From: Ruminococcus sp.
GTDB lineage: Bacteria > Bacillota > Clostridia > Oscillospirales > Acutalibacteraceae
Assembly (NCBI GenBank): GCA_017411835.1
Contig: JAFQPG010000018.1
Coordinates: 1-36,572 of the forward strand
Length of the DNA: 36,572 bases
Reading direction: 5' to 3'
Under the pieces are notes generated by a model. It saw only the letters and a program-made list of their open reading frames with translations, did not search any database and was not told the origin of the DNA. The position numbers were made by a program, and so were the translations under genes. Shown here one piece after another: positions 2,975 to 34,240 of this stretch (positions are counted from its first letter, which is position 1; every line of letters starts with the position of its first letter).

Positions 2975-3721
2975 ATGGCTAAATGTGCAGTTATTCTCGC
3001 CGGTGGCGAAGGCAAACGAATGAAGTCGAATAAACCAAAACCTATGAGCGAAGTGCTCGGCAGACCGATGCTGCAATGGGTTATCGACTCTGTACGCGGT
3101 GCAGGAGTTGAAAACATCTGCGTTGTAAAAGGCTTTAAAAAGGAATGTATCGAAGAATACGTTGCTACCTTGCCTTACAAGGTCGAAACTGTTTATCAGG
3201 CCCAGCGTTTAGGTACAGGCCACGCGGTTATGATGGCTAAAGACTTCTTAAAAGAAAACGAAGGCGATGTCGTCATTTTGTGCGGTGATGCTCCGTTTAT
3301 GGACAAGGACACTATCGCAGACGCTTTTGCTCAGCACGATAAGGAAAACGCCTCCGCTACTGTTATTTCTGCGGTGCTTGAAGATTCTACAGGCTACGGA
3401 CGAATTGTCAGAAATGCTGACAACTCTTTAAAAGCGATTGTAGAGCAAAAAGAAGCAGACGAAGAAACGCTTAAAATCAAGGAAGTAAACTCGGGTGGAT
3501 ACTGGTTTGATACAAAAGACCTTTTGTCAGTACTCGACTCGATTACCGCAAACAACGCGGCTGCTGAATACTACCTTCCTGATGCGTTAAAGCTCTTGAT
3601 TAATAACCAAAAAACTGTTGGTGCTTTTACTGCAAGCTCACCTGATACGGTGCTCGGTGCAAACGACCCTCAGCAGCTTGAAGAACTCAACCAGATTGCT
3701 ATCAAAAAAGGCTATCGTTAA
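2975..3721 (+). CDS. glmU: GlmU-type UDP-GlcNAc pyrophosphorylase domain protein (no acetyltransferase domain)
   Basis: A nucleotidyltransferase that would join GlcNAc-1-phosphate to UTP, giving UDP-GlcNAc for peptidoglycan. The N-terminal signature LAGGEGKRMKSNKPKPM (residues 9-25) is the nucleotide-binding loop with its catalytic Arg and Lys. QAQRLGTGHAVMMA, CGDAPFM and the EVNSGGYWFD region are also typical of the GlmU N-domain. The protein is 248 residues and stops where bifunctional GlmU (about 450 residues) would continue into its left-handed beta-helix acetyltransferase. The natural stop is followed by a normal intergenic region, so this is not a frameshift visible here. It precedes prs, as gcaD does in Bacillus. 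Substrate specificity is inferred from family and context. Confidence 0.85.
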   Translation: MAKCAVILAGGEGKRMKSNKPKPMSEVLGRPMLQWVIDSVRGAGVENICVVKGFKKECIEEYVATLPYKVETVYQAQRLGTGHAVMMAKDFLKENEGDVVILCGDAPFMDKDTIADAFAQHDKENASATVISAVLEDSTGYGRIVRNADNSLKAIVEQKEADEETLKIKEVNSGGYWFDTKDLLSVLDSITANNAAAEYYLPDALKLLINNQKTVGAFTASSPDTVLGANDPQQLEELNQIAIKKGYR

Positions 3722-3797
3722 AACTAGTCTAGCTATCAAACGGATATAATTTTATTTTCATATATCATCAAAATATCAAAAAGGGGAATATCAAAAA

Positions 3798-4757
3798 ATG
3801 AATTCACATGGTAAGGACATCAAGATTTTCACACTGAACTCTAACGTTGAAGTTGCTCAGGGTATTGCCGGTTGCCTCGGTTTACCACTTGGTAAAAGCG
3901 ACTGCGCTACTTTCTCTGACGGTGAAATCGCTGTTTCGCTTCACGAGTCTGTACGTGGTAGCGAGTGCTTTATTGTGCAGTCAACCTGCTCACCTGTAAA
4001 CGACAACCTTATGGAGCTTCTCATTATGATTGATGCTATGAAGAGAGCTTCCGCTTCTTCCATCACAGCAGTTATGCCTTATTTCGGCTATGCTCGTCAG
4101 GACAGAAAATCAAAGGCAAGAGATCCAATCTCAGCAAAGCTTGTTGCTGACCTCATTACTGCTGCAGGCGCTGACAGACTTCTTACAATGGACCTTCACG
4201 CTGCTCAGATTCAGGGCTTCTTCAACATTCCTGTTGACCACCTTGTTGGTGCTCCTATGCTTGCTGAGCATATGAGAAACAAGATTGCAGGCCACACCGA
4301 CGAATATGTTGTTGTATCACCTGACTTAGGTTCTGTTACACGTGCTCGTAACTTTGCTGCTAAAATCGGCTGCCCTATCGCTATCGTTGACAAGCGCAGA
4401 CAGCGTGCTAACGTTTCTGAGGTTATGAACATTATCGGTGAAGTAAAAGGCAAAAAGGTTATCCTCGTTGATGATATGATTGATACCGCAGGTACACTTT
4501 GCAATGCTGCTAACGCTATCGTTGAAAAAGGCGGCGCTACAGAGGTTTACGCTTGTGCTTCTCACGCAGTACTTTCCGGTCCTGCTATCGAGAGAATTAA
4601 GAACAGCGCTATCAAAGAGTGCATCCTCCTTGATACTGTTCCGATTTCAGAGGAGAAAATGATTGACAAATTTACTATTCTTTCTGTTGCTCCGCTGTTT
4701 GCTGAAGCAATCGAGAGAATTTACGAAGACAAGCCTGTTTCTCCAATGTTCCTGTAA
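3798..4757 (+). CDS. prs: Ribose-phosphate pyrophosphokinase (PRPP synthetase)
   Basis: Makes PRPP from ribose-5-phosphate and ATP, feeding purine, pyrimidine, histidine, tryptophan and NAD synthesis. At 319 residues it is full length. Visible landmarks are the start [14 protein letters not shown], the metal/ATP signature [18 protein letters not shown] near residue 133, and the PRPP-binding loop [11 protein letters not shown] near residue 224. AAGGGG precedes the ATG. It lies 76 bases after the glmU-like gene and is followed at once by a strong intrinsic terminator, so the pair probably forms a small operon. Confidence 0.97.
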
Positions 4758-11208: not shown

Positions 11209-11676
11209 TTACTTAAACAAAAGCATTACATACTGGCCTTCGTTCTCGTTAAAATTGTTAATCATACCGTCAGTAGGCTGTGTGTCCTGAGTTACTACTA
11301 TAGACTGCTCTTTAAGAGTTAAATTTGCATTTGAACCAAAGGTTCTTCCGACTATCGCAAAGTGAGAAATAACATTGTTATTTGCATCAATCTCCACAGG
11401 TGGATAAAACTTCTGGAACACGATTGCAAATCTGTAGCTGTTTTCAAGCTCAAAAGTTTTTGTTCCTGCTCCGTCACCCGCATAGGAAAATACCGTATAT
11501 GGGTTTTCGTAACGCTGTTTTTCCTGTGCAGAAACGTGAATAGAGCTGTTTAGTATGTGACCGCCCAGCTTTTCATCGATGATGTTATTGTCATTGACAA
11601 AGTCAATTCGCTTTGGTCGGTCACTTGACTGCCACGCACACAGATTAAGATTTTCGGTATAAGAGGTTGCTGCCAT
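11209..11676 (-). CDS. Short tail-fibre / baseplate-tip-like protein (last gene of island)
   Basis: A 155-residue protein. Its N-terminus (NLNLCAWQSSDRPKRIDFVNDN) resembles the start of many Firmicute phage tail-fibre proteins, where a similar segment joins the fibre to the baseplate. The rest looks like a beta-rich domain with many polar residues and no collagen-like repeats, and it is far shorter than a usual fibre. It follows the DUF2313 gene by 11 bases with a GGAGG site and ends 2 bases from the terminator. Its place at the end of a baseplate module suggests the receptor-contact protein. The call rests on position and the N-terminus only. Confidence 0.5.
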   Translation of the reverse strand: MAATSYTENLNLCAWQSSDRPKRIDFVNDNNIIDEKLGGHILNSSIHVSAQEKQRYENPYTVFSYAGDGAGTKTFELENSYRFAIVFQKFYPPVEIDANNNVISHFAIVGRTFGSNANLTLKEQSIVVTQDTQPTDGMINNFNENEGQYVMLLFK

Positions 11677-11687
11677 TTTGTTCCTCC

Positions 11688-12254
11688 TTATTCTAGGTTA
11701 TCAATATCTTCCCACCTTAGATTAAGTGAGTCGATGTATGTAAAGTCGTTGTTTTTGCTGTCGCTTTGCTCCCAACTCGGCCCGTTAAAAACCACATACA
11801 CTACCTGATGCGCAGGCATTATTTTCAAAATCTGCGAGCGTATCCACGCTTTTTGAGCATCGGTGTAGCTGCCCAACGCGTCAACAACTATAGTGTAGGT
11901 TTTCGGATACTCATACACCTTGAAATTTTCAAGCGAAAAGCTTTTTAGCGATTTATTGATTTGCTCTACAGTAAAGCTTTTCTGGTCGATGCTTTCTCTA
12001 AGATTTAGCATCTGTCTGCGTTTTTGAAGTGTCAGGTCATCTCGCAAAGCCCCGATAATAATTTCTCGATTTTCAATGCCATAGGTCGATGCTGTATCAA
12101 TAAAGCATTCAAAAAGCATCTCAAGCGTTTTTTTATTGAGTCTGTTTATCTCGTCTGAATAGGTCTGCAATTCATACGAGATGTTTGAGTTTTCAAAGCT
12201 GTATAAAGAAAGTGGGGATAGCGCTTCTTTCATTGATGTATATGCTTCTTTCAT
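11688..12254 (-). CDS. Baseplate wedge protein, DUF2313/YmfQ (gpI, XkdU-like)
   Basis: 188 residues, close to the usual size of YmfQ/XkdU. The C-terminal block, IMPAHQVVYVVFNGPSW, is the hallmark of the DUF2313 family, and the N-terminal helices around ALRDDLTLQKRR also fit. These proteins sit next to baseplate J in contractile-tail phages and help link wedge to fibre. The ATG overlaps the stop of the baseplate J gene (TAATG), so translation is likely coupled. Confidence 0.8.
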   Translation of the reverse strand: MKEAYTSMKEALSPLSLYSFENSNISYELQTYSDEINRLNKKTLEMLFECFIDTASTYGIENREIIIGALRDDLTLQKRRQMLNLRESIDQKSFTVEQINKSLKSFSLENFKVYEYPKTYTIVVDALGSYTDAQKAWIRSQILKIMPAHQVVYVVFNGPSWEQSDSKNNDFTYIDSLNLRWEDIDNLE

Positions 12255-13321
12255 TACTGCACCGCCCTGATATCAATTTTATTTACCACACATTTTTCAT
12301 TAGGTTTCGGGTAAACATCGCTGCAGTAAGCATCAATAAAGCTGTAATTTTTTACTCCCTGTGTATGGTGAATTATGTCGCCGACATTGCTTAAAAGCAC
12401 AGGCTCACCTACCGAAAGCGAGTTTACGTAATCGGTGATTTTTTCTTTTAGCAAAGCTGACAGCTCATTAAAGTCATAACCGTCAAAAACTTCAAGAGTA
12501 AAGCTAAAGAGCACGTCATTTTTCAGCGCATATAAAACAAACACATCAACGTTGAGCTCTCTGTTTTCATCGATAAGCGCCTGTGCCTGCTCTATCTGTG
12601 CTCTTGTGACACTTTCGCCGTTATATCCGCATACATAAACATCTACTGTGCCCGCACCTCTAGAGCACGGTACAACCGACGCCGAGTGTATGCCATCTAC
12701 AGACAAAGCAAGACGCTTGTAATAAACCGCATTTGTACTGTTTGATATATCCTGATAGCTTGCAAGCACACGCTTTCTTAAGTCTTCATCGGTTTCTTTA
12801 TCAAAACCGCCTTTAAAAGCACTTTTGTTTACAACTGCACTTATGTTAAGCGGAGGCGTCACCATCACCGTAACTGTATTTTCAGACACGTTATAGTCGC
12901 TACCGCCCTGCACAGCCACAACCTTTACCTTGACTGATTTCTGACCTGCTAAAAGAGTCGCATCTTCTACTGTTTCATAGCTTTTTGCAACAGGCCCGAC
13001 GGTTGCAACCACCGTGCCCTTTTTTATTACAATATCACTTTCTGATGCATCAACTACTGAGAAGGTGACTTCACCCGTTGCTTTGACTGCTTCTTTTCTT
13101 ATTAAGCCTCGCTGTTGTGCGTGCTTATCAAGATACTCGCCCGTTGCTGTTGAAATAAACATCTGCCTTTTTACAAATTCTTGTGCAACATAGTTATTAT
13201 AAATTTCTGCACTTAAAACCTTGAGTCTTAGCATTATATCTGATTCATCGCTGATTGTGCTACCGCTGTAAAACTCATAATTTTCAATCATTCTATTAAG
13301 AATTTCTTCGTAACTATCCAT
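12254..13321 (-). CDS. Baseplate J-like wedge protein (XkdT family)
   Basis: 355 residues, typical of baseplate J (Mu gp47, PBSX XkdT). Family features visible are the N-terminal helix with VLSAEIYNNYVAQEF, the ATGEYLDKHAQQRGL segment near residue 58, the beta-rich middle with KKGTVV, and the signature ETDEDLRKRVLASYQ near residue 175. The GAPG-like turn is replaced by CSRGAGTVDVYV. It forms the wedge that triggers sheath contraction in myophages. The start overlaps the gp25-like gene by 8 bases and has GGAGGTG upstream. Confidence 0.93.
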   Translation of the reverse strand: MDSYEEILNRMIENYEFYSGSTISDESDIMLRLKVLSAEIYNNYVAQEFVKRQMFISTATGEYLDKHAQQRGLIRKEAVKATGEVTFSVVDASESDIVIKKGTVVATVGPVAKSYETVEDATLLAGQKSVKVKVVAVQGGSDYNVSENTVTVMVTPPLNISAVVNKSAFKGGFDKETDEDLRKRVLASYQDISNSTNAVYYKRLALSVDGIHSASVVPCSRGAGTVDVYVCGYNGESVTRAQIEQAQALIDENRELNVDVFVLYALKNDVLFSFTLEVFDGYDFNELSALLKEKITDYVNSLSVGEPVLLSNVGDIIHHTQGVKNYSFIDAYCSDVYPKPNEKCVVNKIDIRAVQ

Positions 13322-13661
13322 TGATTGTCACCTCCGTTGTCGCGCTTTTGTCTTTGCATATAACCCTTATAATCGCTTTTTTAGGCGTGCTGTTTTTATC
13401 AACACTTAAAACCTGTAAATCGCAGTAAGGAATATCCACGGTCGCTTCCTTATAGAGCATCTCGAGCTTTTCTTTGAGCATTTCGTCGTTCATACTAAGG
13501 GTATGAGTATTACACCCAAGCTCCCTGTCAAAAGGAAAAGCCCCCTTTTTTATTGTGCAGGCGATTTTTATTCTCTGCACAATTTCTTCAAATGACTCAA
13601 CATAAACCGTACTGCCCCATTGTGTTATTGCAAGGTCATTATTTTCTATTTTTACATCCAT
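13314..13661 (-). CDS. gp25/GPW-like baseplate protein (XkdS/DUF2634)
   Basis: 115 residues. A short beta N-terminus is followed by helix EIVQRIKIACTIKKGAFPFDRELG. The last part, GAFPFDRELGCNTH, matches the conserved EPR-like core of gp25/gpW-type wedge proteins, and the C-terminus is a beta pair (AIIRVICKDKSATTEVTI). The order gp25-like then J-like is the one found in PBSX and P2-type baseplates. It is separated by 2 bases from the preceding spike gene, so it is part of one polycistron. Confidence 0.8.
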   Translation of the reverse strand: MDVKIENNDLAITQWGSTVYVESFEEIVQRIKIACTIKKGAFPFDRELGCNTHTLSMNDEMLKEKLEMLYKEATVDIPYCDLQVLSVDKNSTPKKAIIRVICKDKSATTEVTING

Positions 13662-13663
13662 AG

Positions 13664-13999
13664 CTACTCAACCGCCTTTCCGTTGATAAGCACGGAGCCG
13701 TCGTTTTTCAAAACTATAGATGCACCGCCTAAGGAATAAAGCATCAGCTCGCCCGGCTTTAGCCCCATATCGGGTGCAATAACGCCGATGCACGCCTCTT
13801 TTTTAGTAAGTGGCAAAACCACCGAATGCTCACCCACAGGCGGGTTGTAAACAATTCCGAATGGAGCAACAATCGGCATATCTCTATGCTCGAGTGATGT
13901 ATTAACCGCAACATTTCCAAGCTTACTTTGAGTAACATCACCACAGCTTGCATCACTTTTAGAAAAAGAATTTTTAGTTACATAATCAAGTAGCCACAT
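13664..13999 (-). CDS. Baseplate spike-like protein (gp45/gpV-related)
   Basis: 111 residues. An OB-fold-like middle (PPVGEHSVVLPL) is followed by GELMLYSLGGASIVLKNDGS, the repeating beta pattern typical of the C-terminal needle in Mu gp45 and gpV-type spikes (GxxIxLxxDGxxxING). The position, directly after the hub and before gp25, is right for the spike or for XkdR. It is short, so it may carry only the OB and a minimal needle. The ATG has GAAAGGAAG upstream, and the hub stop lies 1 base before it. Confidence 0.65.
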   Translation of the reverse strand: MWLLDYVTKNSFSKSDASCGDVTQSKLGNVAVNTSLEHRDMPIVAPFGIVYNPPVGEHSVVLPLTKKEACIGVIAPDMGLKPGELMLYSLGGASIVLKNDGSVLINGKAVE

Positions 14000-14000
14000 A

Positions 14001-14945
14001 CTACACTTCCTTTCTCTTTAGCGTCACTATAGTGACATCTTTTTTAGAACTCAACTGATATCTGATGCTGCTTACGTACAGGTTATCTATATCTTTGCAG
14101 ATTGAATTTTTCACCTTAGCATTGCTGTTAAATACTGAAAGATGCTGACCAACGCATTCAAGGGTAATGTAGTATGCTTTTTCTCTGCCGTTTTTTATCA
14201 TTTTATCGGCGTACTCTACCGGAGTATCAGTAAGCACAGAATTCAAATACCTCTCGCGTTGAATTTTTCTTTTTGTCGCATCTTTGTTTTCAACTACGCT
14301 GTTATATCCGCAGGAATTAGTCACCTTTATACGCACCTTGGAAATCTCTTCGCATCTTTTGTTTACCTGTGCAAATTTAGTGTAAGGGATACCGTCACCG
14401 TCATTTGAAAAGACAACGGTGCTATCCTTTTTTGAGCCTGAAAAATCGACCTCTCCATACTCGTTTACACGCACAGTACTGTTATAGGCGTTCTTTGAAA
14501 AATCTTCTATCGCCTGCCAGTTTGTCTGACCCTTTAATACTGTCTGTGTACCGTAGAAAGTCACGTTTTCTCCCCTTGTTTTTAAACCGAAAGGTGTGAT
14601 ATGGTGCGACTCAATCACAAAGGTGTCGGGGTGCATATAGCTTATTGGCTCGCTTTCGTTGTCGACAAGCTTTGATGCCATACTGCGTGCAACAATTTTT
14701 ATGTACTCACCTGACGCGCTTGATAGAATCTGTTGCTCATCAATAATGCCGTAAAACAACGCTTTATCGTCATCAAAGAGTTTAACCTCAACAAGCTCAT
14801 CACAGTCAAAATATGCAAACACAGCGCTCATATCATCACACGGAACGCCCTGCTCCATATTCACATCAAGCGTAACAGGGTTAAAAGCAGTAACACTCTT
14901 ACCATTTATATCCGTAAAAACAAATCTCAGCACAGCTTTATGCAC
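14001..14945 (-). CDS. Baseplate hub protein (gpD / XkdQ-like)
   Basis: 314 residues, the size of XkdQ/gpD hub proteins, which join the tail tube to the spike. The N-terminal half is beta-rich with typical hub features (FDCDELVEVKLFDDDKALFYGIID), followed by NWQAIEDFSKNA, a conserved segment in the family, and YADKMIKNGREKAYYITLECVG. The start is GTG and overlaps the LysM gene end by 19 bases; a second GTG four codons later (14933) is equally possible. It is recognised mainly by pattern and by its place before the spike. Confidence 0.75.
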   Translation of the reverse strand: MHKAVLRFVFTDINGKSVTAFNPVTLDVNMEQGVPCDDMSAVFAYFDCDELVEVKLFDDDKALFYGIIDEQQILSSASGEYIKIVARSMASKLVDNESEPISYMHPDTFVIESHHITPFGLKTRGENVTFYGTQTVLKGQTNWQAIEDFSKNAYNSTVRVNEYGEVDFSGSKKDSTVVFSNDGDGIPYTKFAQVNKRCEEISKVRIKVTNSCGYNSVVENKDATKRKIQRERYLNSVLTDTPVEYADKMIKNGREKAYYITLECVGQHLSVFNSNAKVKNSICKDIDNLYVSSIRYQLSSKKDVTIVTLKRKEV

Positions 14946-15445
14946 TCCCCTTTCTTTATATCATTGATAAACATAATGTGTTTATTAAGCTCTACAAGCT
15001 TTTTTATATCAACACCATATTTGTAGGAAACGTCCCACAGCGTTGTATCTAAGTCACAGATAATCTCTTTTGAAAAAACAAAGCACTGTGGCCTATCCTT
15101 TAAAATCGAAAACGAAAAGCTGTATGTAAGAACAGATGAAGAGGGCTTTGCGATAATTGAGAGCTTATCAAAGCACGCATAAAACGGACTAAGCTTTGGC
15201 AAGCACAAAATTGCGTTTTCGCCCTGTTCATAAAGGCTTTTAAGCTTTTGATACTGATGTATACAATCATCACCGTAAAGCTCACCCACCCCGCTTATCC
15301 TAATCGGCTTTTCGCCGAAATTGATAAGCACATCAGCGCTGTATGGAAGCTCAATCCTCTGCACCTTTTTTTCGCTGTGGATTTCAAGACTTTTCGGGTT
15401 ATGATGCCAGCTAAAGCCGTTAAATCTCATTGGGCTTAATTTCAT
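14927..15445 (-). CDS. LysM-domain tail/baseplate protein (XkdP-like)
   Basis: 172 residues. The N-terminal part (MRFNGFSWHHNPKSLEI) is typical of tail proteins encoded just before the hub. The C-terminal 45 residues form a LysM module: DTTLWDVSYKYGVDIKKLVELN and the closing GECIKLC. XkdP-type proteins bind peptidoglycan or help assemble the hub and are placed between the tape measure and the hub gene. Here the gene before it is only 50 codons and there is no tape measure. Start and stop overlap neighbours (ATGA), which points to translational coupling. Confidence 0.8.
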   Translation of the reverse strand: MKLSPMRFNGFSWHHNPKSLEIHSEKKVQRIELPYSADVLINFGEKPIRISGVGELYGDDCIHQYQKLKSLYEQGENAILCLPKLSPFYACFDKLSIIAKPSSSVLTYSFSFSILKDRPQCFVFSKEIICDLDTTLWDVSYKYGVDIKKLVELNKHIMFINDIKKGECIKLC

Positions 15446-15594
15446 CTTGTGCCCACCTCCTGCTCATCTAAAAAAGCTCTGTTGTAGCGTCGGCAGTCGC
15501 GCTCAAACTCTTCAGAAATTCTAAAAACCACATCGCTGTTTATTTCTGTCTGACTAAATTCAGGCACTATGTTTTCAGTCTTTTCCATACTCAT
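15442..15594 (-). CDS. 50-residue protein at the tape-measure position
   Basis: A small open frame found by reading the gap between the tube-like and LysM genes. Its ATG overlaps the preceding stop (ATGA), its own TGA overlaps the ATG of the LysM gene, and GGAGGT lies just ahead. The predicted protein is charged and mostly helical (RISEEFERDCRRYNRAF). The tight coupling on both sides and the conserved operon spacing show it is a real gene. It takes the slot where contractile phages carry chaperones and the tape-measure gene. The function is unknown; a short internal tail rod or an assembly factor is possible. Confidence 0.7.
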   Translation of the reverse strand: MSMEKTENIVPEFSQTEINSDVVFRISEEFERDCRRYNRAFLDEQEVGTR

Positions 15595-15962
15595 ACCTCC
15601 GCTACATTCATTTTTGTCGCAATTATCGTGTACTTATCTGTCAGCGGTTTTTGCGGTAAAGCTTCCCTGACTTTGCTTTTAAGGCGACAGTTTAAATACT
15701 CGTACCTTTTGTTGCCGTCTGCTAAAGACAAGGTGAAGCCGTCCTTTTCAAAAATTTCGCTATCTAAATGAGTAAGCGCCGTAAGGCTTAGCTCATAGCT
15801 TTTGTTTAAAGGCACGGTATCAAACGCTTCATCACACAAAAACTCTTCAATTTTATATACGTCTGAACTTTCCTGAGCAACAAAAGATGTGACAAAACAA
15901 AGAAGCTCTTCATCAATATAAATATTAATATCCTCACCCTTTAAAAGTCTTAGTGTATTCAT
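15591..15962 (-). CDS. Candidate tail-tube-like protein
   Basis: 123 residues from the ATG with GAGGAGGTG upstream; the longer frame to 15986 has no ribosome site. The layout is beta-rich: INIYIDEELLCFVTSFVAQ, a central loop with YELSLTAL, then SLADGNKRYEYLNCRL and a C-terminal helix/strand. The short strand-turn-strand opening and the size resemble tail-tube proteins such as XkdM and gpFII, but no diagnostic motif is visible. The position, after the tail terminator, suits a tube. It could instead be a baseplate adaptor. No sheath gene lies before it, which is unusual for this baseplate type. Confidence 0.45.
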   Translation of the reverse strand: MNTLRLLKGEDINIYIDEELLCFVTSFVAQESSDVYKIEEFLCDEAFDTVPLNKSYELSLTALTHLDSEIFEKDGFTLSLADGNKRYEYLNCRLKSKVREALPQKPLTDKYTIIATKMNVAEV

Positions 15963-16396
15963 CCTGTCACCTCCTCGTACATACAAAACGATAGCTGTAA
16001 AACTACATCTCTATATACAGACATAGCGTTCTCATCAAACGATATCGCAGAAATTTTTATATCCTGACAAGCGTTGTAGCTGTCGCTTTTTCTGATTGCA
16101 TCGCATAGCTCATTTGCAAGGCTGATAAGCCCCTCGCCACCGTTGTTTTTCGGCGCATAAATTCTGAATTTCAGCGTTAAATCATACATACCGCCTTTTA
16201 AATTATCTTTAACATTTTCGCCAACAAAACTACTCACGACCTGAGTATCCAGCGTTGATACCGCTATCATATAGTCGCTTAAAGGGTTTGCTTGCTCATA
16301 AGCGCCAAAGCCTTTTACAAAGCATATATCGCTAAGCGAGCCATACGTTTTTATTTTTTTTACCATATCATCAATGTTAGTCTGAAGCTGCGTCAT
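15959..16396 (-). CDS. Tail terminator / head-tail joining protein (XkdJ-like)
   Basis: 145 residues. The ATG at 16396 has AAAGGCGG seven bases upstream; other in-frame ATGs lie at 16402 and 16417, and the frame to 16492 only overlaps the previous gene. The helix-strand pattern (TNIDDMVKKIKTYG, then VVLQLSFCMYEE at the end) and the size match tail terminators of the gpU/XkdJ type, which cap the tube and join it to the head. The family is assigned from size and order, with low sequence support. It overlaps the next start by ATGA. Confidence 0.55.
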   Translation of the reverse strand: MTQLQTNIDDMVKKIKTYGSLSDICFVKGFGAYEQANPLSDYMIAVSTLDTQVVSSFVGENVKDNLKGGMYDLTLKFRIYAPKNNGGEGLISLANELCDAIRKSDSYNACQDIKISAISFDENAMSVYRDVVLQLSFCMYEEVTG

Positions 16397-16742
16397 AGTC
16401 ATCCCGCCTTTGTTCATAATACGGCTTAAGCACCGCCCATACATACAGCGCGCTGTTATTAAACTCGTAGGTGTCGCTGTTATGCACAACATATTTTTTG
16501 CCGTTAGATGTGAGCACCGCGTTCTCCCTTATATCAAACCTTAACTGCGGTGTGCCGATATAAAGGTAATATCTTTTTTCGGAAAAGCCGCCTGTGGTAA
16601 TCGAATCATTAAAATATCGGCTGTTTTTATAGTGAAGCGGCTGAATAAAAGCTTTTGTAAAATAAACTTTTGCGCCTTTTTCTATTTTTACCCGATTACC
16701 ATAGGTATTAATCATATTTTTTACGCTGGCAAATATGCTCAT
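16377..16742 (-). CDS. Head-tail joining protein (head-closure/stopper, XkdH-like)
   Basis: 121 residues from the ATG at 16742, which overlaps the previous stop (ATGA) and has AAGGGTG ahead. The beta-rich centre contains NSRYFNDSITTGGFSEKRYYLYIG and NGKKYVVHNSDTYEFN, followed by a helix with LYVWAVLKPYYEQ. This resembles head-closure (stopper) proteins of the XkdH group. These sit between connector ring and tail terminator to hold DNA in the head. The assignment is from pattern and gene order. Confidence 0.6.
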   Translation of the reverse strand: MSIFASVKNMINTYGNRVKIEKGAKVYFTKAFIQPLHYKNSRYFNDSITTGGFSEKRYYLYIGTPQLRFDIRENAVLTSNGKKYVVHNSDTYEFNNSALYVWAVLKPYYEQRRDDYDAASD

Positions 16743-17101
16743 ACACTCACCCTTGTAAAGCAAAAATCATCAAAGCTTACAAGGTCTGTTATTTCCTGCT
16801 TTTGGTTTTGCCACATTAAAGCAGCAGACTCTATCATATCTGACGACTTAGTAATCTGCACATCGCCTGCTTTTAGGCTGTAGGCGGTGTTTGCACTCAT
16901 AGCAAGCGCATATTTATAGTACGCGTAAACAGCACACGCATACGCAAGACGCTTGTTTTCGCTTTCGCTAAACTCTTTTTTTCTTTGCTTGCCCTCAAAG
17001 TATTTTATGCAATCAACTATAATAAAAATCCATTTTGATATTTCTTCTTGCTCAAGGCCTGACACCAGAGCAAATCTGTCCAGCACATCTTTTAAACTCA
17101 A
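16739..17101 (-). CDS. Head-tail connector (adaptor) protein
   Basis: 120 residues starting at TTG, with AAAGGAGGG eight bases upstream. The sequence is almost wholly helical (IFIIVDCIKYFEGK; KRLAYACAVYAYYKYAL), as in gp6/gp15-type adaptor proteins, which form a ring under the portal. It directly follows the capsid gene by 14 bases, the usual position for this role. There is no catalytic motif. Confidence 0.65.
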   Translation of the reverse strand: MSLKDVLDRFALVSGLEQEEISKWIFIIVDCIKYFEGKQRKKEFSESENKRLAYACAVYAYYKYALAMSANTAYSLKAGDVQITKSSDMIESAALMWQNQKQEITDLVSFDDFCFTRVSV

Positions 17102-17115
17102 GGTGTCGCCCTCCT

Positions 17116-18126
17116 TTAGTATGTAAGTTTAATTGATGCGTCCTTGAAAATCTTTGCAAAGCCCGCGATACAAGAAACTGTTGCACGCTCGAGCTGTCTG
17201 TCGATGAGCTTGTCGTAGTCAGTAACAACGTCGCCTGCCTTAACCATTTCAAGAGCACAGTTTTTATCAAGACCAATGATAAGGTCAGAGTTGATAGCAT
17301 CTGTGTGCAGTAGGTTTGCACCAAGTGGTGTGACCATTTTGCCACTGCCCTGGAAATTAAGACCTGCTGCAGCATCCTTCATCTCGCCCATTGCTAAAAT
17401 CTTCTTCATAGCAGAGGTTGGCGCTAAAATTGTATTGAGCTGATACGGAGAAAGATTTGCCCATAAGGAGATGAGGTCGTCATAAGAAACGTCGCCTGTC
17501 TCGGCGCTTGCGATAGCCTTGCACGCATTTGAGTTGCCGTCACCGTTTAAAATAGTGTCTACAGCGTCTTTGAGCTGTGCTCTGGCAATATATGCGCCAA
17601 TCTGGTTGAGCGTTACCGTAAAGAGGTCGAGACGCTGGAAGCGTAACGCCTCGTAAGAAGATACGAGCATTCTGCCACGCTTATGAAGCTTAACGAGGTT
17701 TTCAGATGTTTTTACAACTGTCTGCGGAATGTACGCACCCTCGTTTACGATGCTCAAAGACTTGTCGTCTTCACTAGGGTCAGACGTAATGCTTCTGTAG
17801 TCCATACCGTCGATTGTAGTAACGGTTGCGACAATGTCAGATAAAATGTCTGCGTTTTCCATACCCTGCTTTACTGCACGAGCAACATATTCAGGGAAAA
17901 GTGCAGATGAGTTTGAGCTCTGGAAAAACTTTTCGACACAGTCAGAACCCTCGCCTGATACCTTGATATCAAAACGCTTGAGCTGACGTGAAAACGCGTC
18001 TAAGTTTTCGAGCTGCGTACCGATATAGTTTGCTGATGGGTCTAAAGATTCGAGCACGTCAGTAAGGCTTTTGCCCTTTGCCTGATACATACCCTTTTCA
18101 AGATTAATATTCTCAAATAATGCCAT
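17116..18126 (-). CDS. Major capsid protein (HK97-fold)
   Basis: 336 residues, typical of HK97-fold capsid proteins. A Lys/Ser-rich N-arm (ENINLEKGMYQAKGKSLTDVLE) is followed by a region with SSALFPEYVARAVKQGME, which is seen in XkdG-like capsid proteins, then VNEGAYIPQTVVKTSENLVKLHKRGRMLVSS and GLNFQGSGKMVTPLGANLL. The long E-loop-like and P-domain patterns fit. It is the most conserved-looking structural gene of the island, with strong codon bias and GGAAG upstream. It is placed after the decoration protein and before the adaptor, the standard order. Confidence 0.9.
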   Translation of the reverse strand: MALFENINLEKGMYQAKGKSLTDVLESLDPSANYIGTQLENLDAFSRQLKRFDIKVSGEGSDCVEKFFQSSNSSALFPEYVARAVKQGMENADILSDIVATVTTIDGMDYRSITSDPSEDDKSLSIVNEGAYIPQTVVKTSENLVKLHKRGRMLVSSYEALRFQRLDLFTVTLNQIGAYIARAQLKDAVDTILNGDGNSNACKAIASAETGDVSYDDLISLWANLSPYQLNTILAPTSAMKKILAMGEMKDAAAGLNFQGSGKMVTPLGANLLHTDAINSDLIIGLDKNCALEMVKAGDVVTDYDKLIDRQLERATVSCIAGFAKIFKDASIKLTY

Positions 18127-18147
18127 TATTACATCTTCCTTTCAAAA

Positions 18148-18486
18148 TTAAAGAATAAAGCCTACGATATTTTCTTCTGCTGATACAACAAGGTATTCTC
18201 TACCGTTATCAGATGCTTTTACCTTGCCTGATGCACCTGCGCAGATTGTTTTATAGCCTGTCTCAAAAGCATCGTCTGTAGGCATTTCGATATAGCCTGT
18301 AAGCTGGACTGCAGCGTAGCCGTTTCTTACATTAACTGCTACACCAATCATATTTTCATCGTCTGCGCACGCACAAACTGTCTTTGAATCTGACATCTTA
18401 ACCGGTGTGCCCATAACAACTGTGCTGTTCTTATCAACAGCGAATGTCACAACGTTTTCGTTGTAGCCTGAAAAATTAATACTCAT
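18148..18486 (-). CDS. Capsid decoration-like protein
   Basis: 112 residues, all-beta, Val/Ala-rich, with regular GYAAVQLTGYIEMPT and TGYKTICAGASGKVKA patterns. This is like DUF2190/head-decoration proteins encoded just before the capsid gene. No other phage role suits its size and place. Decoration proteins stabilise the packed head, so its presence suggests that DNA-filled heads are made. Confidence 0.65.
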   Translation of the reverse strand: MSINFSGYNENVVTFAVDKNSTVVMGTPVKMSDSKTVCACADDENMIGVAVNVRNGYAAVQLTGYIEMPTDDAFETGYKTICAGASGKVKASDNGREYLVVSAEENIVGFIL

Positions 18487-18499
18487 AATTTTTGCCTCC

Positions 18500-19489
18500 T
18501 TAAACCATAAACTGATTGTTTTTTTCTGTTACAAATTTTGAGCCCTTTTCGTCTTTTACACATTCAAGCTGAGGTGAACAAGGCTCTTCTTCCACGCTCT
18601 TTTTTGTGTACGCATCACACAAAGACTTAAGCTCGTAAACACTAAGCTTTTCTAAAATTCCTTTTAGCGTCTGCGTATCAAGCTCGATATGAGTTACGCC
18701 CATTAATCTAAGCGCCTCATTTTGAAGCTGTGCTTTGTAAAACTCGCCGTCTGATGCTCTTTGCTCGAGCTGTGCGATGTAATCACAAAGCTTTTCTGTC
18801 TGATGCGATTTTAATATCATCTCCTTGCCCTGTTTAAGAGCAGAAATTACATCCTTCATATTTTTACTCTCCTCTTTGTTTTTACAAAACGCTTTAATAA
18901 CGCCTGCATTTTTCTGTGCAGGTACTGCAACAAAGCTAAATTCATACGCGTCATACACACCCGTTAGCTCACCGTAACAAAGTTTACCGTTATACTCTTG
19001 TCCCTTTGTGTGGTGACAACTTGTCGTATGCATATCCTGTGAGCATATTGAACACAGGGTTTCTTTTACCGCACACCCGACGCTTACTTCCTTTGTAATG
19101 CCTGAATCAAGCGCCAAAATAAGCTCTTTGTTTTTCTCAGATTTAGGAAGATACGCACGTGCGACAAGTCTGAAATAATCGTCACCCGTTTTAGTTTTTC
19201 TGTTTTCAAGGGCTTCAACCTTGCACGAAAAAATACGTGCTGACTGATTTTTTGCACTTGGGTTGTGGTCAAAAATGCCCGTCTTTCCGACAAAGAGCTT
19301 TTCAAGCTCAAAGAGCGATTCAACCGTAAAGCGTTCAAAATCTCTATCGATGTCGTTATCACAAAGCACAACGGAGAATACGTAAACCTCATCAGCACTC
19401 AGCTCTCGTCGTGTGTACTGATTAATAAGCTGTAAATCTTCATTACTTACTAAAGTGTCTGCACTTTTAATTACCTTACCTGTTTTCAA
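18500..19489 (-). CDS. Prohead protease and scaffold fusion (XkdF-like) with Cys/His insertion
   Basis: 329 residues with a TTG start that overlaps the portal stop; GAGGTG is upstream. The first 200 residues are a U35-type serine protease: HNP with His75, and EVSVG with Ser136. A zinc-knuckle-like insertion has Cys146, Cys149, Cys158, His159/His160 and Cys171 (CSICSQDMH then CHH). After residue 205 it turns into a coiled scaffold-like region (KDVISALKQGKEMILK; YIAQLEQRA) as in fused protease-scaffold proteins. The protease trims capsid N-arms during maturation. All the expected catalytic residues are present. Confidence 0.85.
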   Translation of the reverse strand: MKTGKVIKSADTLVSNEDLQLINQYTRRELSADEVYVFSVVLCDNDIDRDFERFTVESLFELEKLFVGKTGIFDHNPSAKNQSARIFSCKVEALENRKTKTGDDYFRLVARAYLPKSEKNKELILALDSGITKEVSVGCAVKETLCSICSQDMHTTSCHHTKGQEYNGKLCYGELTGVYDAYEFSFVAVPAQKNAGVIKAFCKNKEESKNMKDVISALKQGKEMILKSHQTEKLCDYIAQLEQRASDGEFYKAQLQNEALRLMGVTHIELDTQTLKGILEKLSVYELKSLCDAYTKKSVEEEPCSPQLECVKDEKGSKFVTEKNNQFMV

Positions 19490-20643
19490 CTTTTCACCTC
19501 CGCTAAAGAAAGCTCAATCTGCTGTGCCTGAGCATTGTGCAGACGAGCAGTCGCAAGCTCTGTTTCGTCTAGCAGACTGATATTGCTCCAGTTTATTTCG
19601 AACTCATCGCAAAGCGAAGAAGTTCTTAAAAACTGCCTGCAAATCTTTTTGATAACAGGATTTAAAATCGTCCTGTAATACTCAAGCTCGCTTGTTAAAA
19701 TATCCGCCTGCTGGGCGCTCATACGCTCTGTTGAGGACCACGAAAGTCCGAGCAAAAACGGCGGGATAGAAAGCTTTGCAACAATCTGTTCTAAAAGATG
19801 TCGTATCTCGATATCGCACGACAGCACCTGATTATCAGCACCGATTACCTTAACCGAAACATCACCCACCGACACAAAGTCGCATACCTGAGATTTATCC
19901 CTCATCGCCTTGCTCCATTGTGTCGCAATTTCCTGCACACGCTGTTTTGTGTTTATGTGAGCGTTTTCCTGCGGCTTATAGGTAATTGCAAAACGCACGT
20001 TTCCAACTCTTTCGAAATTCACACCGATTGTGTTGAAAATCTTCAAAAGTATTGAGCTTACAAACGGCAGTCCCTTTAAAATCGATGTGCCCTGCACCCT
20101 GCCCGGTGTCGGGTTTAAAAGGCTTAAGCAGATAAGCTCCTGATATTTAACCGGTGTGTAGCTCATATCCTTGCCCTTTGCACACACCAAAACATCAAGT
20201 GACGAGTCTAATTGTTTCAGCCTTACATCTTCTAATGACGCGTTATACAAAGCTTTTACAAAGCGAAAATCTTTTGACATAACAATCTCGCCTACTGCAC
20301 TACCGTAGGTCAGAAGCTGGTCAAAATACGTATAGATAAACTGCATAATGCCGTTTGAGTTGTTATTTACTCTGACATCTTGCAAAAAATTATCCAGCGA
20401 CTTTTGTGCCGATTTATCCTTACACTTAATTTCAAAAGTGCCGATAAGTCGCACAAGCTTTGAAATCGCAGCATCGATAACAGGAATTGCTTCTCTTAAG
20501 CTTTTATAAAGCTCAAGCTGTTTTTCACAATACGGACTGTAGTTATCAAGCATAGAAAATGGATGCTTATTCGTGCTTGATAAAGAGGTCTGAACAGTAA
20601 AGTCATCTGCATCGCTTTTCTTTTTTGCAGAAAATAATTTCAA
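19486..20643 (-). CDS. Portal protein
   Basis: 385 residues. The ring-forming protein through which DNA is pumped into the head. The landmarks are an N-terminal YSPYCEKQLELYKSLREAIPVIDAAI segment, FIYTYFDQLLTYGSAVGEIV in the stem-wing part, and the conserved LSIPPFLLGLSWSSTERMSAQQA loop close to the C-terminus. The size is at the low end for XkdE-type portals (about 440-500). The TTG start has AGGAGG ahead. Gene order terminase, portal, protease is standard. Confidence 0.88.
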   Translation of the reverse strand: MKLFSAKKKSDADDFTVQTSLSSTNKHPFSMLDNYSPYCEKQLELYKSLREAIPVIDAAISKLVRLIGTFEIKCKDKSAQKSLDNFLQDVRVNNNSNGIMQFIYTYFDQLLTYGSAVGEIVMSKDFRFVKALYNASLEDVRLKQLDSSLDVLVCAKGKDMSYTPVKYQELICLSLLNPTPGRVQGTSILKGLPFVSSILLKIFNTIGVNFERVGNVRFAITYKPQENAHINTKQRVQEIATQWSKAMRDKSQVCDFVSVGDVSVKVIGADNQVLSCDIEIRHLLEQIVAKLSIPPFLLGLSWSSTERMSAQQADILTSELEYYRTILNPVIKKICRQFLRTSSLCDEFEINWSNISLLDETELATARLHNAQAQQIELSLAEVKS

Positions 20644-20658
20644 GCTATTACCTCCTGT

Positions 20659-21912
20659 TTAGTATCTTTTTGCGGCGACAGCACAAAAATCACTGTCGTC
20701 GCGGTTTTTAATTGTGGTGACAAAATATCTGATATCATCCATCGCGTGGTCATTTGCTTTGACTACCATATCGTTTTGTGCGTTTTCGCTCCATCTGTAT
20801 AAAGAGAACTCCTTTATGCTTGCTTTGCAGTTTTTGCATATACGCACGCTTTTCTCTTTAAGCGCAGAGGACACGGTTCTGATTCCGTCGATGACGTTGT
20901 TTTTTGCAGGCACTACTAAAAATTTCTGATGCCGCCTGATAACCTCAATAAAGCTACACGCTGACGGGTCAACCGTAACGCAGGATATCTTTTTACCATT
21001 CACAAGCTCGCACAACGCCTTGTAGTGCTCCTCGTCAGTACGCTGATATCCCTCTTTTTTAGAATCGAAATAATATTCGTCAATTCTATACCACACGTCG
21101 TTTTGTCTTCCCCACAAACCAAATGACGCGGGATTTACCGTACCGTAATCGCACGACACAGCGTATTCCTCAAAATCGCCTTTTGGTATATCGTAAAATG
21201 CGCTGTCATTGTCCATAAACGGATACACAGCACCGCACACGCTCACCCATCTGCCCTGAACAAAACGCTGATAAAAAGACCCCGAATACATCTTTTCGTA
21301 GCGCTTTATCATTTTTTTAGAAAGGGACGGGTTGTCGTGCATTGTAAAGTGGATATACAAAGCGTTTTTTTCTTTATGCTTTTTTATCCACTCGTTGTAG
21401 AACCAATGGGACGGATACTCAGGGTTGCAGTTAAACCAGAAAGTTGAGCCTGATACCGAGCATCGTGCCAAAGCCTGCTCGACAAAAGACCTCGGCATAA
21501 GTGCTACCTCATCAAGCAAAATTCCGCTAAGCGTCATACCCTGTATTAAAGAGGCTGAGCCCTCATCCTTACCGCCGAAAAGGTAAAAGCGGTTAACTTT
21601 GTTTTTGTAATTTGCGGTAATGAGGTTATCGCTTAGCTTATAAGAAATTTCAAAGCCCAACCGCTCAAGCTCAGATGTTAGAGGAGTGACTAAATTCCTG
21701 CGTAGCGATTTTATCGTTTTTCCGCACAAGGCAAACGAGCTGTCATCAAATTTTGCAAATGCCCACAAAATAAACGACAACGACATACAAAAGGTTTTGC
21801 CCGACCTGACTGCCCCGTCGCAGATCACCGCATCACAGCTTTTGTAGGGTGAGTTTTCGCTCCACCAGGTAAGTGCAAGCAACTGCTTTTTAGAAAAAGG
21901 TTTATAGTTCAC
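20659..21912 (-). CDS. Terminase large subunit
   Basis: 417 residues from GTG at 21912, which has GAGGTGG six bases upstream (a TTG at 21927 would add five residues). It is the packaging motor. The ATPase has Walker A GAVRSGKT (residues 33-40 of this start) and Walker B ILLDE (131-135). The RNase-H-like nuclease has its acidic residues at Asp255 (SCDYG), Asp315 (TVDPSA) and Asp392/Asp393 (HAMDDIRYF). All catalytic residues are intact, so the enzyme looks functional. It overlaps the small-subunit stop by 11 bases. Confidence 0.95.
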   Translation of the reverse strand: MNYKPFSKKQLLALTWWSENSPYKSCDAVICDGAVRSGKTFCMSLSFILWAFAKFDDSSFALCGKTIKSLRRNLVTPLTSELERLGFEISYKLSDNLITANYKNKVNRFYLFGGKDEGSASLIQGMTLSGILLDEVALMPRSFVEQALARCSVSGSTFWFNCNPEYPSHWFYNEWIKKHKEKNALYIHFTMHDNPSLSKKMIKRYEKMYSGSFYQRFVQGRWVSVCGAVYPFMDNDSAFYDIPKGDFEEYAVSCDYGTVNPASFGLWGRQNDVWYRIDEYYFDSKKEGYQRTDEEHYKALCELVNGKKISCVTVDPSACSFIEVIRRHQKFLVVPAKNNVIDGIRTVSSALKEKSVRICKNCKASIKEFSLYRWSENAQNDMVVKANDHAMDDIRYFVTTIKNRDDSDFCAVAAKRY

Positions 21913-22402
21913 CGTTTTCCACCTCAAGTTCGCTTATCGTCTTTGCGCCTAAATTTATTGCATCAATCAGACTGTTTCCAAAGTCCTGCTCTTTTTCGCA
22001 GTCGCTGATATTTTGCAACGCTTTAATTCTGTCAAAGAATTTTATCTCCATCGCTCCATCTTTAAGCTTTTTAATTTCGGACACCATAATCAGGTCCATT
22101 TTCGAGAGCGTTTCTCTACTCACATTTTCCATAAACAAAAGGCTGACAGCATCAGAAACTGATGAAAAAGCAAGGCGTTCAAAACCGAGTCGCGCTATCT
22201 GCTTGATTGCGTTTTCACGCGTGTTTATGATAGACGCTATCTCTGCTGCCGCCTCAGGCTTTGACAGTATCTGCTCGCCCTTTTGCAAAGGTTTTTTTGT
22301 GTAGCCCGCGTTTAGTGCAGACTTTTCAATATCAGCGCTGTTTGCATAATGCACACAAAAGAGTCTTTGCTTTTGAGAAAGCCCCCGTGTTTTATTCTTC
22401 AA
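21902..22402 (-). CDS. Terminase small subunit
   Basis: 166 residues. I start it at TTG 22402, which has GAAAGGAG about seven bases ahead; a GTG at 22432 has none. The N-terminal part is helical DNA-binding (KTRGLSQKQRLFCVHYANSADIEKSALNAGYTKK), the well-known XtmA/terminase-2 pattern. It recognises the packaging start site and hands DNA to the large subunit. It is the first gene of the island operon. Confidence 0.9.
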   Translation of the reverse strand: MKNKTRGLSQKQRLFCVHYANSADIEKSALNAGYTKKPLQKGEQILSKPEAAAEIASIINTRENAIKQIARLGFERLAFSSVSDAVSLLFMENVSRETLSKMDLIMVSEIKKLKDGAMEIKFFDRIKALQNISDCEKEQDFGNSLIDAINLGAKTISELEVENGEL

Positions 22403-22453
22403 AGTATCTCTCCTTTCAATAATGGCTCTCACTTAACCCCCAAAAAACGAAAA

Positions 22454-22486
22454 AAGTTGCATAAAAATATGCAACTTCTGAAAAAA
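22454..22486. terminator. Hairpin between phage-island leader and gerA gene
   Basis: A perfect 10-pair stem, AAGTTGCATA / TATGCAACTT, with an AAAA loop. On the minus strand it is followed by TTTTTTCGTTTTTT, so it reads as a good intrinsic terminator located about 50 bases upstream of the first island gene. On the plus strand it is followed by an A/T-rich stretch with weaker tail quality. No convincing promoter is visible between it and the first island gene. Confidence 0.75.
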
Positions 22487-29683: not shown

Positions 29684-29712
29684 ATTATATTGCTAAGATT
29701 TTATAAAGTCAA
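29684..29712 (-). promoter_or_regulatory. Sigma-A promoter of the esterase gene
   Basis: On the minus strand TTGACT (29712-29707), a 17-base spacer and a perfect TATAAT (29689-29684) precede the ATG at 29653 by about 30 bases. Confidence 0.85.
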
Positions 29713-29785
29713 TGCGACACTTTTAACATCACAATTTCAAAAAATTTCTTCTTATATTGACAAGCATTTTTCACAAAATACTACT

Positions 29786-29812
29786 ACAACGACAAAAAAA
29801 TTTTTTCGTTGT
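29786..29812. repeat. A/T-cored palindrome in the SASP leader
   Basis: ACAACGA and TCGTTGT arms flank an A6/T6 centre, giving a near-perfect inverted repeat with a single mismatch, about 50 bases ahead of the SASP start. It might be a regulator site, a weak terminator or an RNA hairpin. Confidence 0.5.
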
Positions 29813-29863
29813 TTATCTATAAATTATTTTGTGAAAAAACCTATAGAAAAGGAGAAGAAAATC

Positions 29864-30055
29864 ATGTCAAAGAATTCTATCGTAGTTCCAGAGGCTAAGG
29901 AAGCTTTGGAGCGTTTCAAGATGGAAGCTGCACAGGAAGTTGGCGTAAACCTCAAGCAGGGTTACAACGGCGACCTCACATCACGTCAGGCAGGTTCAGT
30001 CGGCGGTCAGATGGTTAAAAAGATGATTGAGTCTTACGAAAACAGCTTAAAATAA
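29864..30055 (+). CDS. Small acid-soluble spore protein, alpha/beta type
   Basis: 63 residues. Coats and protects spore DNA from UV and heat; degraded by the GPR protease at germination. The family is clear from VPEAKEALERFKMEAAQEVG, which carries the GPR-type cleavage motif, and from GYNGDLTSRQAGSVGGQMVKKMI. GGAGAAG lies ahead of the ATG; the longer frame to 29690 lacks this site and crosses the promoter of the opposite gene. An AATACTA near 29777 is close to the -10 consensus of sigma-G, but the -35 partner is poor. Confidence 0.97.
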   Translation: MSKNSIVVPEAKEALERFKMEAAQEVGVNLKQGYNGDLTSRQAGSVGGQMVKKMIESYENSLK

Positions 30056-30071
30056 TTTTAAAAATAAAAAA

Positions 30072-30108
30072 AGGGCTGGCCAATTTGGTCAGTCCTTTGT
30101 TTTTTAAT
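30072..30108 (+). terminator. Intrinsic terminator after SASP gene, GGCTGACC family
   Basis: AGGGCTGGCCA / TGGTCAGTCCT with two G-U pairs is followed by TTGTTTTTTAATT. It is a diverged copy of the hairpins at 27099 and 32011. Confidence 0.85.
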
Positions 30109-30137
30109 TTGACTTTAAAAATAAACAAGGCTATAAT
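30109..30137 (+). promoter_or_regulatory. Sigma-A promoter of dockerin phosphoesterase
   Basis: TTGACT (30109-30114), a 17-base spacer and a perfect TATAAT (30132-30137) sit right behind the terminator of the SASP gene. Position and strength fix the coding start at 30166. Confidence 0.88.
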
Positions 30138-30165
30138 CGGATTATATCATAAAAAGAGGTGCTGT

Positions 30166-31992: not shown

Positions 31993-32010
31993 AAAATTAT
32001 AAATAACAAA

Positions 32011-32037
32011 AAGGGCTGACCAAATTGGTCAGCCCTT
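32011..32037. terminator. Bidirectional terminator, GGCTGACC family
   Basis: The stem AAGGGCTGACCA / TGGTCAGCCCTT (12 pairs) with a 3-base loop lies between the convergent phosphoesterase and CBM26-dockerin genes. The minus-strand tail is T-rich (TTTTTGTTATTT), and the plus-strand tail is shorter. Confidence 0.88.
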
Positions 32038-32054
32038 AGCTTTTGCGTTTTATT

Positions 32055-33965: not shown

Positions 33966-34030
33966 AAGTAATTCTCCTTGTCTTTTAGTTCTTTTAAAGA
34001 ATAAAATAGTTATTAAAACAACCAAAGTTT

Positions 34031-34059
34031 ATTGTATAACATATATTTCTATATTTCAA
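34031..34059 (-). promoter_or_regulatory. Candidate sigma-A promoter of CBM26-dockerin gene
   Basis: Minus-strand TTGAAA (34059-34054), a 17-base spacer and TACAAT (34036-34031), about 65 bases ahead of the ATG. Bases 34060-34190 hold nothing else recognisable. Confidence 0.6.
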
Positions 34060-34180
34060 TGCAATTTTTTACAAAAATAAATATCGCCAACTAAATTGTA
34101 TAAAAAGTCAAGTTTTGCCCTAAAAAACCGCAAAAGTCTAAAATCATAATCAAAAAAGCGGTGCAAAACAACTTTGAAAA

Positions 34181-34212
34181 GAAAATAAAAAAGGCTCGGA
34201 AAAAACCGAGCC
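34181..34212 (-). terminator. Intrinsic terminator of the amylase gene
   Basis: On the minus strand GGCTCGG / CCGAGCC (7 pairs, T6 loop) is followed by TTTTTTATTTTC. It stops the GH13 transcript ahead of the CBM26-dockerin promoter, so the two genes are separate units. Confidence 0.92.
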
Positions 34213-34240
34213 CATTTTATTATTTTATCTTAAGAAAGAA

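Follow-up and report, generated by a model that had tools for sequence, protein, structure and literature searches.

What is an unbroken run of phage head and baseplate genes doing among ordinary host genes in a Ruminococcus chromosome? The window analyzed here is the whole 36,572-nucleotide stretch of contig JAFQPG010000018.1 (assembly GCA_017411835.1), and the locus in question is a cluster of 18 intact minus-strand frames in a row, from 11209 to about 22402 (11.2 kb). Its products include TerS, TerL, portal, capsid, neck, hub and J-type baseplate proteins and a fibre-like end protein. A first-pass annotation had proposed that these genes make a domesticated, selectively kept, nearly tailless particle consisting of a head on a baseplate. 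That proposal is supported by the distribution of the cluster, by a gene tree that fits the host families, by the ratios of nonsynonymous to synonymous substitution rates (dN/dS), and by searches that found no sheath. The cluster is probably the structural operon of a domesticated, vertically inherited, tail-reduced particle resembling a gene transfer agent (GTA). It appears to be kept in many gut bacteria of one order and to have passed from mother to daughter cell over a very long time, probably because it moves fragments of the bacteria's own DNA from cell to cell.

Gene content and surroundings of the cluster

The window genome comprises 1.72 Mb in 20 contigs and is 99% complete. Neighbouring cluster frames are spaced by -28 to +21 bases, with one exception, an overlap of 116 bases that stems from the use of an upstream start codon, and 99% of the cluster span is coding. 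None of the frames is broken, and the dense packing of consecutive frames described in the first pass is borne out. Pfam and PHROG matches likewise uphold its assignment of a packaging and head set followed by a contractile-type baseplate set. The features are listed from the upstream end, with match values after the family names.

22452..22479, minus: palindromic element TTGCAY-N6-RTGCAA with A/T tracts, upstream of TerS (conserved core)
21902..22402, minus: TerS, small terminase subunit (PF03592 9.9e-14; phrog_2606 6.2e-11)
20659..21927, minus: TerL, large terminase subunit (PF03237 5.9e-18; phrog_2 3.7e-45)
19486..20643, minus: portal protein (PF04860 4.8e-12; phrog_30703 1.6e-122)
18500..19489, minus: probable head maturation protease/scaffold, between portal and cement (phrog_16951 2.2e-97, a PHROG of unknown function)
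18148..18486, minus: head cement/decoration protein (phrog_4588 4.3e-15; PF22758 0.022, below cut-off)
17116..18126, minus: major capsid protein (PF25209 2e-15; phrog_3922 1.8e-96)
16739..17101, minus: head-tail connector (neck) protein 1 (no match in family libraries; profile in 40/41 loci; role by position)
16377..16763, minus: head-tail connector (neck) protein 2 (profile in 35/41 loci; role by position)
15959..16492, minus: tail terminator-like protein (phrog_1232, tail terminator, 0.099 only, marginal; profile in 32/41 loci)
15591..15986, minus: tail tube protein, 131 residues from TTG or 123 from ATG (profile to solved tubes; AlphaFold2)
15442..15594, minus: 50-residue protein in the tape-measure slot, candidate tape-measure remnant (C-terminal motif)
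14927..15445, minus: LysM tail protein (PF01476 0.001; phrog_1274 8.5e-5)
14001..14945, minus: baseplate hub (phrog_177 2.8e-5)
13664..13999, minus: Mu gp45-like baseplate/spike protein (PF06890 0.011; phrog_25991 1.4e-10, unknown function)
13314..13661, minus: gp25-like baseplate wedge, sheath-initiator relative (PF10934 0.011; phrog_120 1.5e-5)
12254..13321, minus: baseplate J protein (PF04865 1.2e-50; phrog_6 7.6e-65)
11688..12254, minus: Mu gp48-like baseplate protein (PF10076 2.1e-9; phrog_521 4.6e-16)
11209..11676, minus: short fibre-like end protein, candidate receptor-binding protein (profile A5 and model)

TerS, TerL, and the portal were detected by profile in 41 of 41 loci compared, which suggests DNA packaging. 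TerS starts at a TTG after GAAAGGAG, and the same frame also opens at a GTG at 22432. The phrog_16951 protein is a probable protease or scaffold-like protein, judged from position and sequence. Neither neck protein has an informative library match, and both were assigned by their conserved position. The true start of the terminator-like gene is probably near 16402. The end-protein profile (A5) gives a weak match to phage Gp15 (6r5w_A, 0.007) over 27 residues, and a tail-fibre PHROG is matched by one of 20 members (0.005) and not by the window's own protein. The model of the end protein has N-terminal helices followed by a beta domain (predicted local distance difference test score, pLDDT, 83; predicted template modelling score, pTM, 0.58). 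The gene was detected in 16 of the 41 loci.

Twelve frames in the flanks were scanned, with the frames at 2975-4757 and 29690-36550 outside the scan. Nine have a family, all of host type (GerA, Mfd/TRCF, peptidyl-tRNA hydrolase, PPDK, deaminase, XdhC, esterase, Gate-domain, and an antitoxin-type DNA-binding protein), and three have none. None of the 12 was recognised as an integrase, repressor, or replication gene, and no match to a lysis or mobility gene was found in the cluster and the scanned part of the flanks. The earlier statement that host genes adjoin the cluster on both sides and that lysis and mobility genes are missing holds for this part of the flanks only. Within the same range the locus shows a pattern typical of a GTA, chromosomal phage packaging and structural genes without replication or integration genes. 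GerA, a spore-germination gene, is divergent from TerS in nine loci of the genus that have this flank in common, and the other genus relatives have different neighbours.

Tail tube, tape-measure slot and sheath

The first-pass annotation had found the terminator-like and LysM genes separated by only two small genes and concluded that the tail shaft is missing. The count is right, and the sheath and a real tape measure are absent, but a tube is present after all. The profile of the 131-residue gene and 39 relatives (A4) matches the solved tail tubes 8q01_A (9.1e-6) and 31es_G (0.043). Weaker matches are the XkdM-related 9g8s_Z (0.13) and one unrelated chain (0.55). The AlphaFold2 model is all-beta with a pLDDT of 88.4, and 34 of the 40 profile members match phrog_27038, which has no assigned function. 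On the strength of profile and model, the 123- or 131-residue gene is a tail tube gene. The terminator and tube profiles fall within one open frame of 266-289 codons in L034 and L036 from the genus and L038 from the family, an arrangement that would fit a tube seated straight on the terminator.

The 50-residue gene has no match in family libraries. Its C-terminal RDxRRY-type motif recurs at the same place in frames of 170-234 residues in eight clusters of f14, the sister family of the window's family f1, and all eight carry a sheath. The motif makes the gene a plausible tape-measure remnant. A long tape measure was not seen in any locus read gene by gene; a 993-residue frame in L063 was rejected as a candidate, having no family match and looking like antisense noise. 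A chaperone-like gene, named from position and size only and with no library match, was detected in five f14 loci. By the usual rule, a helical residue spans 1.5 angstrom. The GTA of Rhodobacter capsulatus (RcGTA) is described with five tube discs at a pitch of 38 angstrom and a tape measure that contains a 113-residue helix (PMC7296036). Given these two lengths per residue and per disc, 50 residues would span at most two tube discs.

The sheath was sought with PF04984 in the whole window genome and with an own-family profile in 59 relatives, among them all 36 genus genomes. None was detected in either search, and the possibility raised in the first pass that a sheath lies elsewhere in the genome finds no support. 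The positive control was a set of 10 f14 genomes picked for having the portal, one of which (G424, locus L068) is also in the profile. The sheath was found in eight of the 10, or seven of nine without G424, and both misses belong to genus g137. Among 40 clusters, 14 have a sheath: nine in f14, three in f26 (a group that we infer to be Ruminococcus-like), one in f2, and one in f7. None of 17 f1 clusters has one, and in L039 the contig ends before the sheath place. Mapped on the tree, the sheath changes state at least five times, with six of the 50 loci left out as contigs that end too early. L059 and genus g137 in f14 have lost the sheath and, as far as profiles see, the baseplate genes too, and the rest of f14 is mostly sheathed. 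In some f26 clusters only head, neck, and hub are visible to profiles, as in Ruminococcus albus 8 and KH2T6; the baseplate genes there may be more divergent.

In PBSX of Bacillus subtilis the genes run terminase, portal, protease, capsid, neck, terminator, (sheath), tube, (chaperone, tape measure), LysM, hub, and baseplate. The window cluster has the same order, a tail tube with an XkdM-related protein among its weak matches, and a baseplate with J, gp25, and hub. In contrast to PBSX, it has no sheath, no real tape measure, and no recognised lysis genes in the operon, and it is spread along host families. Gene order is largely conserved over the 41 loci. The exceptions are L052 and L067, with rearranged capsid and portal-side genes, and L061, with the portal in two frames; the capsid precedes the protease-like gene in many Ruminococcus-like loci.

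Distribution, inheritance and selection

A single portal copy was found in 33 of the 36 genus genomes, and the three misses are draft genomes that are 78-89% complete. One of 23 genomes of other families in the same sample has it. In an order-wide sample, 70 of 394 genomes have the portal, one copy each, including 35 of 43 in f1; the eight f1 misses fall in four genera whose sampled genomes all lack it. Inner stops interrupt 0 of 34 portal matches in the genus sample and three of 70 in the order sample. The capsid was found in 89 of 197 f26 genomes, part of the matches being partial or weak (down to 1e-5), and clusters related to the one in the window are present in two Ruminococcus albus genomes. 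The search of related genomes suggested in the first pass therefore shows a cluster present across the genus and the family, and not a local relic. Some Ruminococcus-like genomes break the single-copy rule. R. albus KH2T6 (G602) has two TerL copies, whereas none of the 12 other genomes searched with TerL has two, and a rabbit metagenome-assembled genome (MAG; record prefix CANQRG) has two capsid loci, L078 and L098.

A viral contig collection contains 373 relatives. Eighty loci were kept; most of their contigs measure 3-20 kb, a length close to that of the cluster itself. Portal and capsid relatives are also filed as 'Bacteriophage sp.' from human faecal samples (MT835952, MT836604, MT835508, MT838993, and MT835769). 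Some of the relatives filed as viruses may be host DNA.

A tree of TerL, portal, and capsid was built from 50 loci by a quick method without bootstrap and has one long branch (L064). The 27 f1 rows group together (96*), as do the 17 genus rows (100*), f26 (93), and f15 (100*). The six family labels need five changes on this tree, the minimum possible, and the f2 row is placed beside two f14 rows. The cluster is inherited along host families. In the close pair L034/L036, the dN/dS of every gene is 0.018-0.178, which answers the call for a gene-by-gene calculation: every cluster gene is under purifying selection in this pair. In L057/L058, another close pair, values of 0.066-0.217 were obtained for nine of the ten genes. 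For many genes of three more distant pairs the synonymous rate is saturated, and the finite ratios are 0.07-0.38. These low ratios indicate that the cluster is not decaying. Vertical inheritance with purifying selection in the host lineage is the second GTA trait found here.

The palindromic element and the nature of the particle

The element upstream of TerS was first noticed in a nine-locus alignment and counted afterwards. Of the 147 loci with upstream sequence, 52 have its core ahead of TerS, compared to 13 matches in 2.37 Mb elsewhere; the 147 include a few identical or near-identical DNAs under two ids, such as L056/L071. A TATAAGTGAAAGG-like stretch follows the palindrome in many loci. 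A profile made from 15 f1 loci and one f14 locus recovers the element at TerS in 25 of the 69 Ruminococcus-like loci that could be tested, and the reverse profile, trained on Ruminococcus-like loci, finds it in 18 of 27 f1 loci. The TerS leader folds with z = -4.3. In a general scan, 56 of 146 loci had a hairpin plus T run ahead of TerS, versus 19 of 438 random segments; the TTGC core is present in only 23 of the 56, and some loci therefore carry different hairpins. Rfam has no family in the window. The element can be read as a terminator-like hairpin or as an operator. A LexA-type SOS box was rejected, with 0 matches in 50 upstream regions. The element overlaps a CodY-like box with at most three mismatches in 15 of 51 loci versus 3.6% of shuffles, judged against a presumed box consensus. 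The overlap hints at starvation control as a lead only. An exact CodY-type box, AATTTTCAGAAAATT, overlaps the element upstream of TerS in L034, with weaker forms in others. The viral contigs hold two exact matches to the element, and neither has a cluster-family TerS, TerL, portal, or capsid in the available stretch.

A second copy of the element lies about 7 kb upstream of TerS in G033, a sister species of the genus, directly before a lysis cassette. The cassette encodes a small coiled-coil membrane protein, a holin, and a muramidase, and presumably resembles the xhlA-xhlB-lysin set of PBSX. Among the matches listed, the phage relatives of the coiled-coil protein are annotated as hypothetical or by orf number. 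Phage matches of the holin are annotated as holin, including one in Faecalibacterium phage FP_Lugh. The best solved relative of the muramidase, which we take to be GH25, is a 1,4-beta-N-acetylmuramidase (1e-14). The muramidase was found in five of 218 loci searched, two of them G033 itself; a relative lies near the cluster in R. albus KH2T6 and in two other loci. The cassette behind the element in G033 suggests a route of release. In relatives, the element was located in L054 (1463, 3754, and 12225) and L161 (15461-15531), two relatives with extra copies, one of which precedes a lysis cassette. The two extra copies in L054 stand before and behind the cluster, beside no nameable gene. In the 757 kb (44%) of the window genome that was sampled, the only element is the one at TerS.

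For the window's strain we infer the tail length, host-DNA packaging, DNA transfer, the action of the element, and lysis as follows. The TerS/TerL motor would fill a small capsid. Its load would most likely be host DNA fragments, since nothing next to the cluster was recognised as a phage replication or integration gene. The portal, neck, and terminator proteins would close the capsid. One or two tube rings would join the head to a sheathless contractile-type baseplate with the short fibre-like protein at its end, the 50-residue tape-measure remnant would set the minimal tail length, and the DNA could then be transferred to other cells. The palindromic element probably governs expression. Release would probably occur by lysis of some producer cells, because the same element precedes the holin/lysozyme cassette in the sister species.

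The closest parallels are known GTAs. GTA-like packaging has been reported in Ruminococcaceae, Oscillospiraceae, and Christensenellaceae by sequencing of virus-like particles (VLPs) (Borodovich et al. 2026, PMC12946183). Packaged fragments of 4.6 kb are given for Ruminococcus callidus, with no operon named for them in the accessible text of that report (PMC12946183), and this size class is only suggestive for the window cluster. The Faecalibacterium prausnitzii agent FpGTA (published sequence CP030777, 2536737-2546346) has two loci, 40-nm capsids without visible tails, and 8.4-8.9 kb of DNA (PMC12946183). As described, FpGTA resembles the window cluster in its compact head operon (about 10.5 kb), its lack of replication genes, and its human gut setting. 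It differs in having a separate locus for baseplate, fibre, holin, and endolysin, whereas the window cluster holds head and baseplate in one operon; the window family, unlike FpGTA, spans several bacterial families, and its tail loss is traceable. No cluster-family capsid, TerL, or portal was detected at E 0.001 in G264 and G226, which share one genus code and which we take to be Faecalibacterium through a MAM marker that matched one of the two. A partial portal match in G226 (0.235) has no cluster around it, and L253, drawn around this match, was rejected as a locus; a TerL-like gene in G573 was rejected as a possible FpGTA, only TerL being related. Because these presumed Faecalibacterium genomes, used in place of the FpGTA sequence, have no TerL, portal, or capsid match, FpGTA seems to belong to a separate lineage that lives in the same way. 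RcGTA, too, is a chromosomal head-tail particle with a short tail and a small DNA load, below 4.5 kb (PMC7296036); it differs in its siphovirus-like tube proteins, another kind of baseplate, and an alphaproteobacterial host. In the open-access literature, with subscription papers mostly outside the search, we found no other description of the window cluster family.

The same genes could serve other ends. The PBSX-type order and the kept baseplates, which hold J, gp25, gp45, and hub in the same sequence, would also suit a particle that packages host DNA without delivering it and uses its baseplate to kill related cells. PBSX itself packages 13-kb host pieces in a GTA-like manner without the DNA transfer of other GTAs (PMC7667829). 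Killing by contraction, however, needs a sheath and a long tube, and the window family offers no detected sheath, 50 codons in the tape-measure slot, and a fibre-like end gene in a minority of loci; we consider a killing particle unlikely. Sporulation-linked or other cell-internal use of capsid and baseplate, with no DNA transfer, draws on the divergent GerA gene as a hint at spore regulation. This use is very improbable: other genus relatives have different neighbours, the universal TerS, TerL, and portal point to DNA packaging, and the holin/lysozyme cassette that follows the element in G033 suggests release.

A family of capsid-forming satellites or active short-genome phages, spreading horizontally in the order, would account for the relatives in the viral collection and the faecal phage records, for the doubled TerL of KH2T6, and for the paired capsid loci of the rabbit MAG. 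Yet the tree matches the host families without unneeded change, both surveys found one portal per genome, the kept viral loci lie mostly on short contigs, and the GerA-side flank is common to nine genus loci, so we give such horizontal spread very little credence. A late-stage decaying prophage that lost its tail genes first, the rest staying open by chance, would explain the absent tail genes and the scanned flanks with no recognised integrase, repressor, or replication gene. Such decay is scarcely credible in view of purifying selection on all genes of the close pair, genus- and family-wide presence, the family-sorted tree, and the rarity of inner stops in the portal, and would require that these genomes diverged very recently.

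Several points weigh against the GTA-like reading itself. To our knowledge, neither particles nor packaged or transferred DNA have been demonstrated for the window cluster family, and the Faecalibacterium precedent is an analogy only. TerS carries a Terminase_2 domain and might select a specific site. The cluster is absent from some genera and is therefore dispensable. Neck protein 2 has a dN/dS of 0.583 in L057/L058. The element stands at TerS in one of 15 loci of f14, f15, f2, and f7, and that one is a training locus. The sampled 757 kb of the window genome yielded no lysis cassette.

A fuller account of this GTA-like particle seems to us evenly balanced between right and wrong. It describes a GTA as old as the order, predating the split of several families, whose tail was lost stepwise: first the long tape measure, next the chaperone and the sheath, and in some lineages finally most of the baseplate. 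A tube of one or two rings would deliver DNA without contraction, and one palindrome would tie the structural and lysis operons together. The common element is a handle for the rest of the regulon and its trigger. The living intermediates, from sheath-bearing to head-only clusters, allow a direct test of how a virus tail could evolve into a minimal injector. If the GTA-like reading is true, the cluster could account for the GTA-like packaging seen in faecal VLPs of Ruminococcus and Oscillospiraceae, for which the accessible text names no operon (PMC12946183), and a large share of the gut and rumen bacteria of this order would own a built-in DNA-packaging particle.

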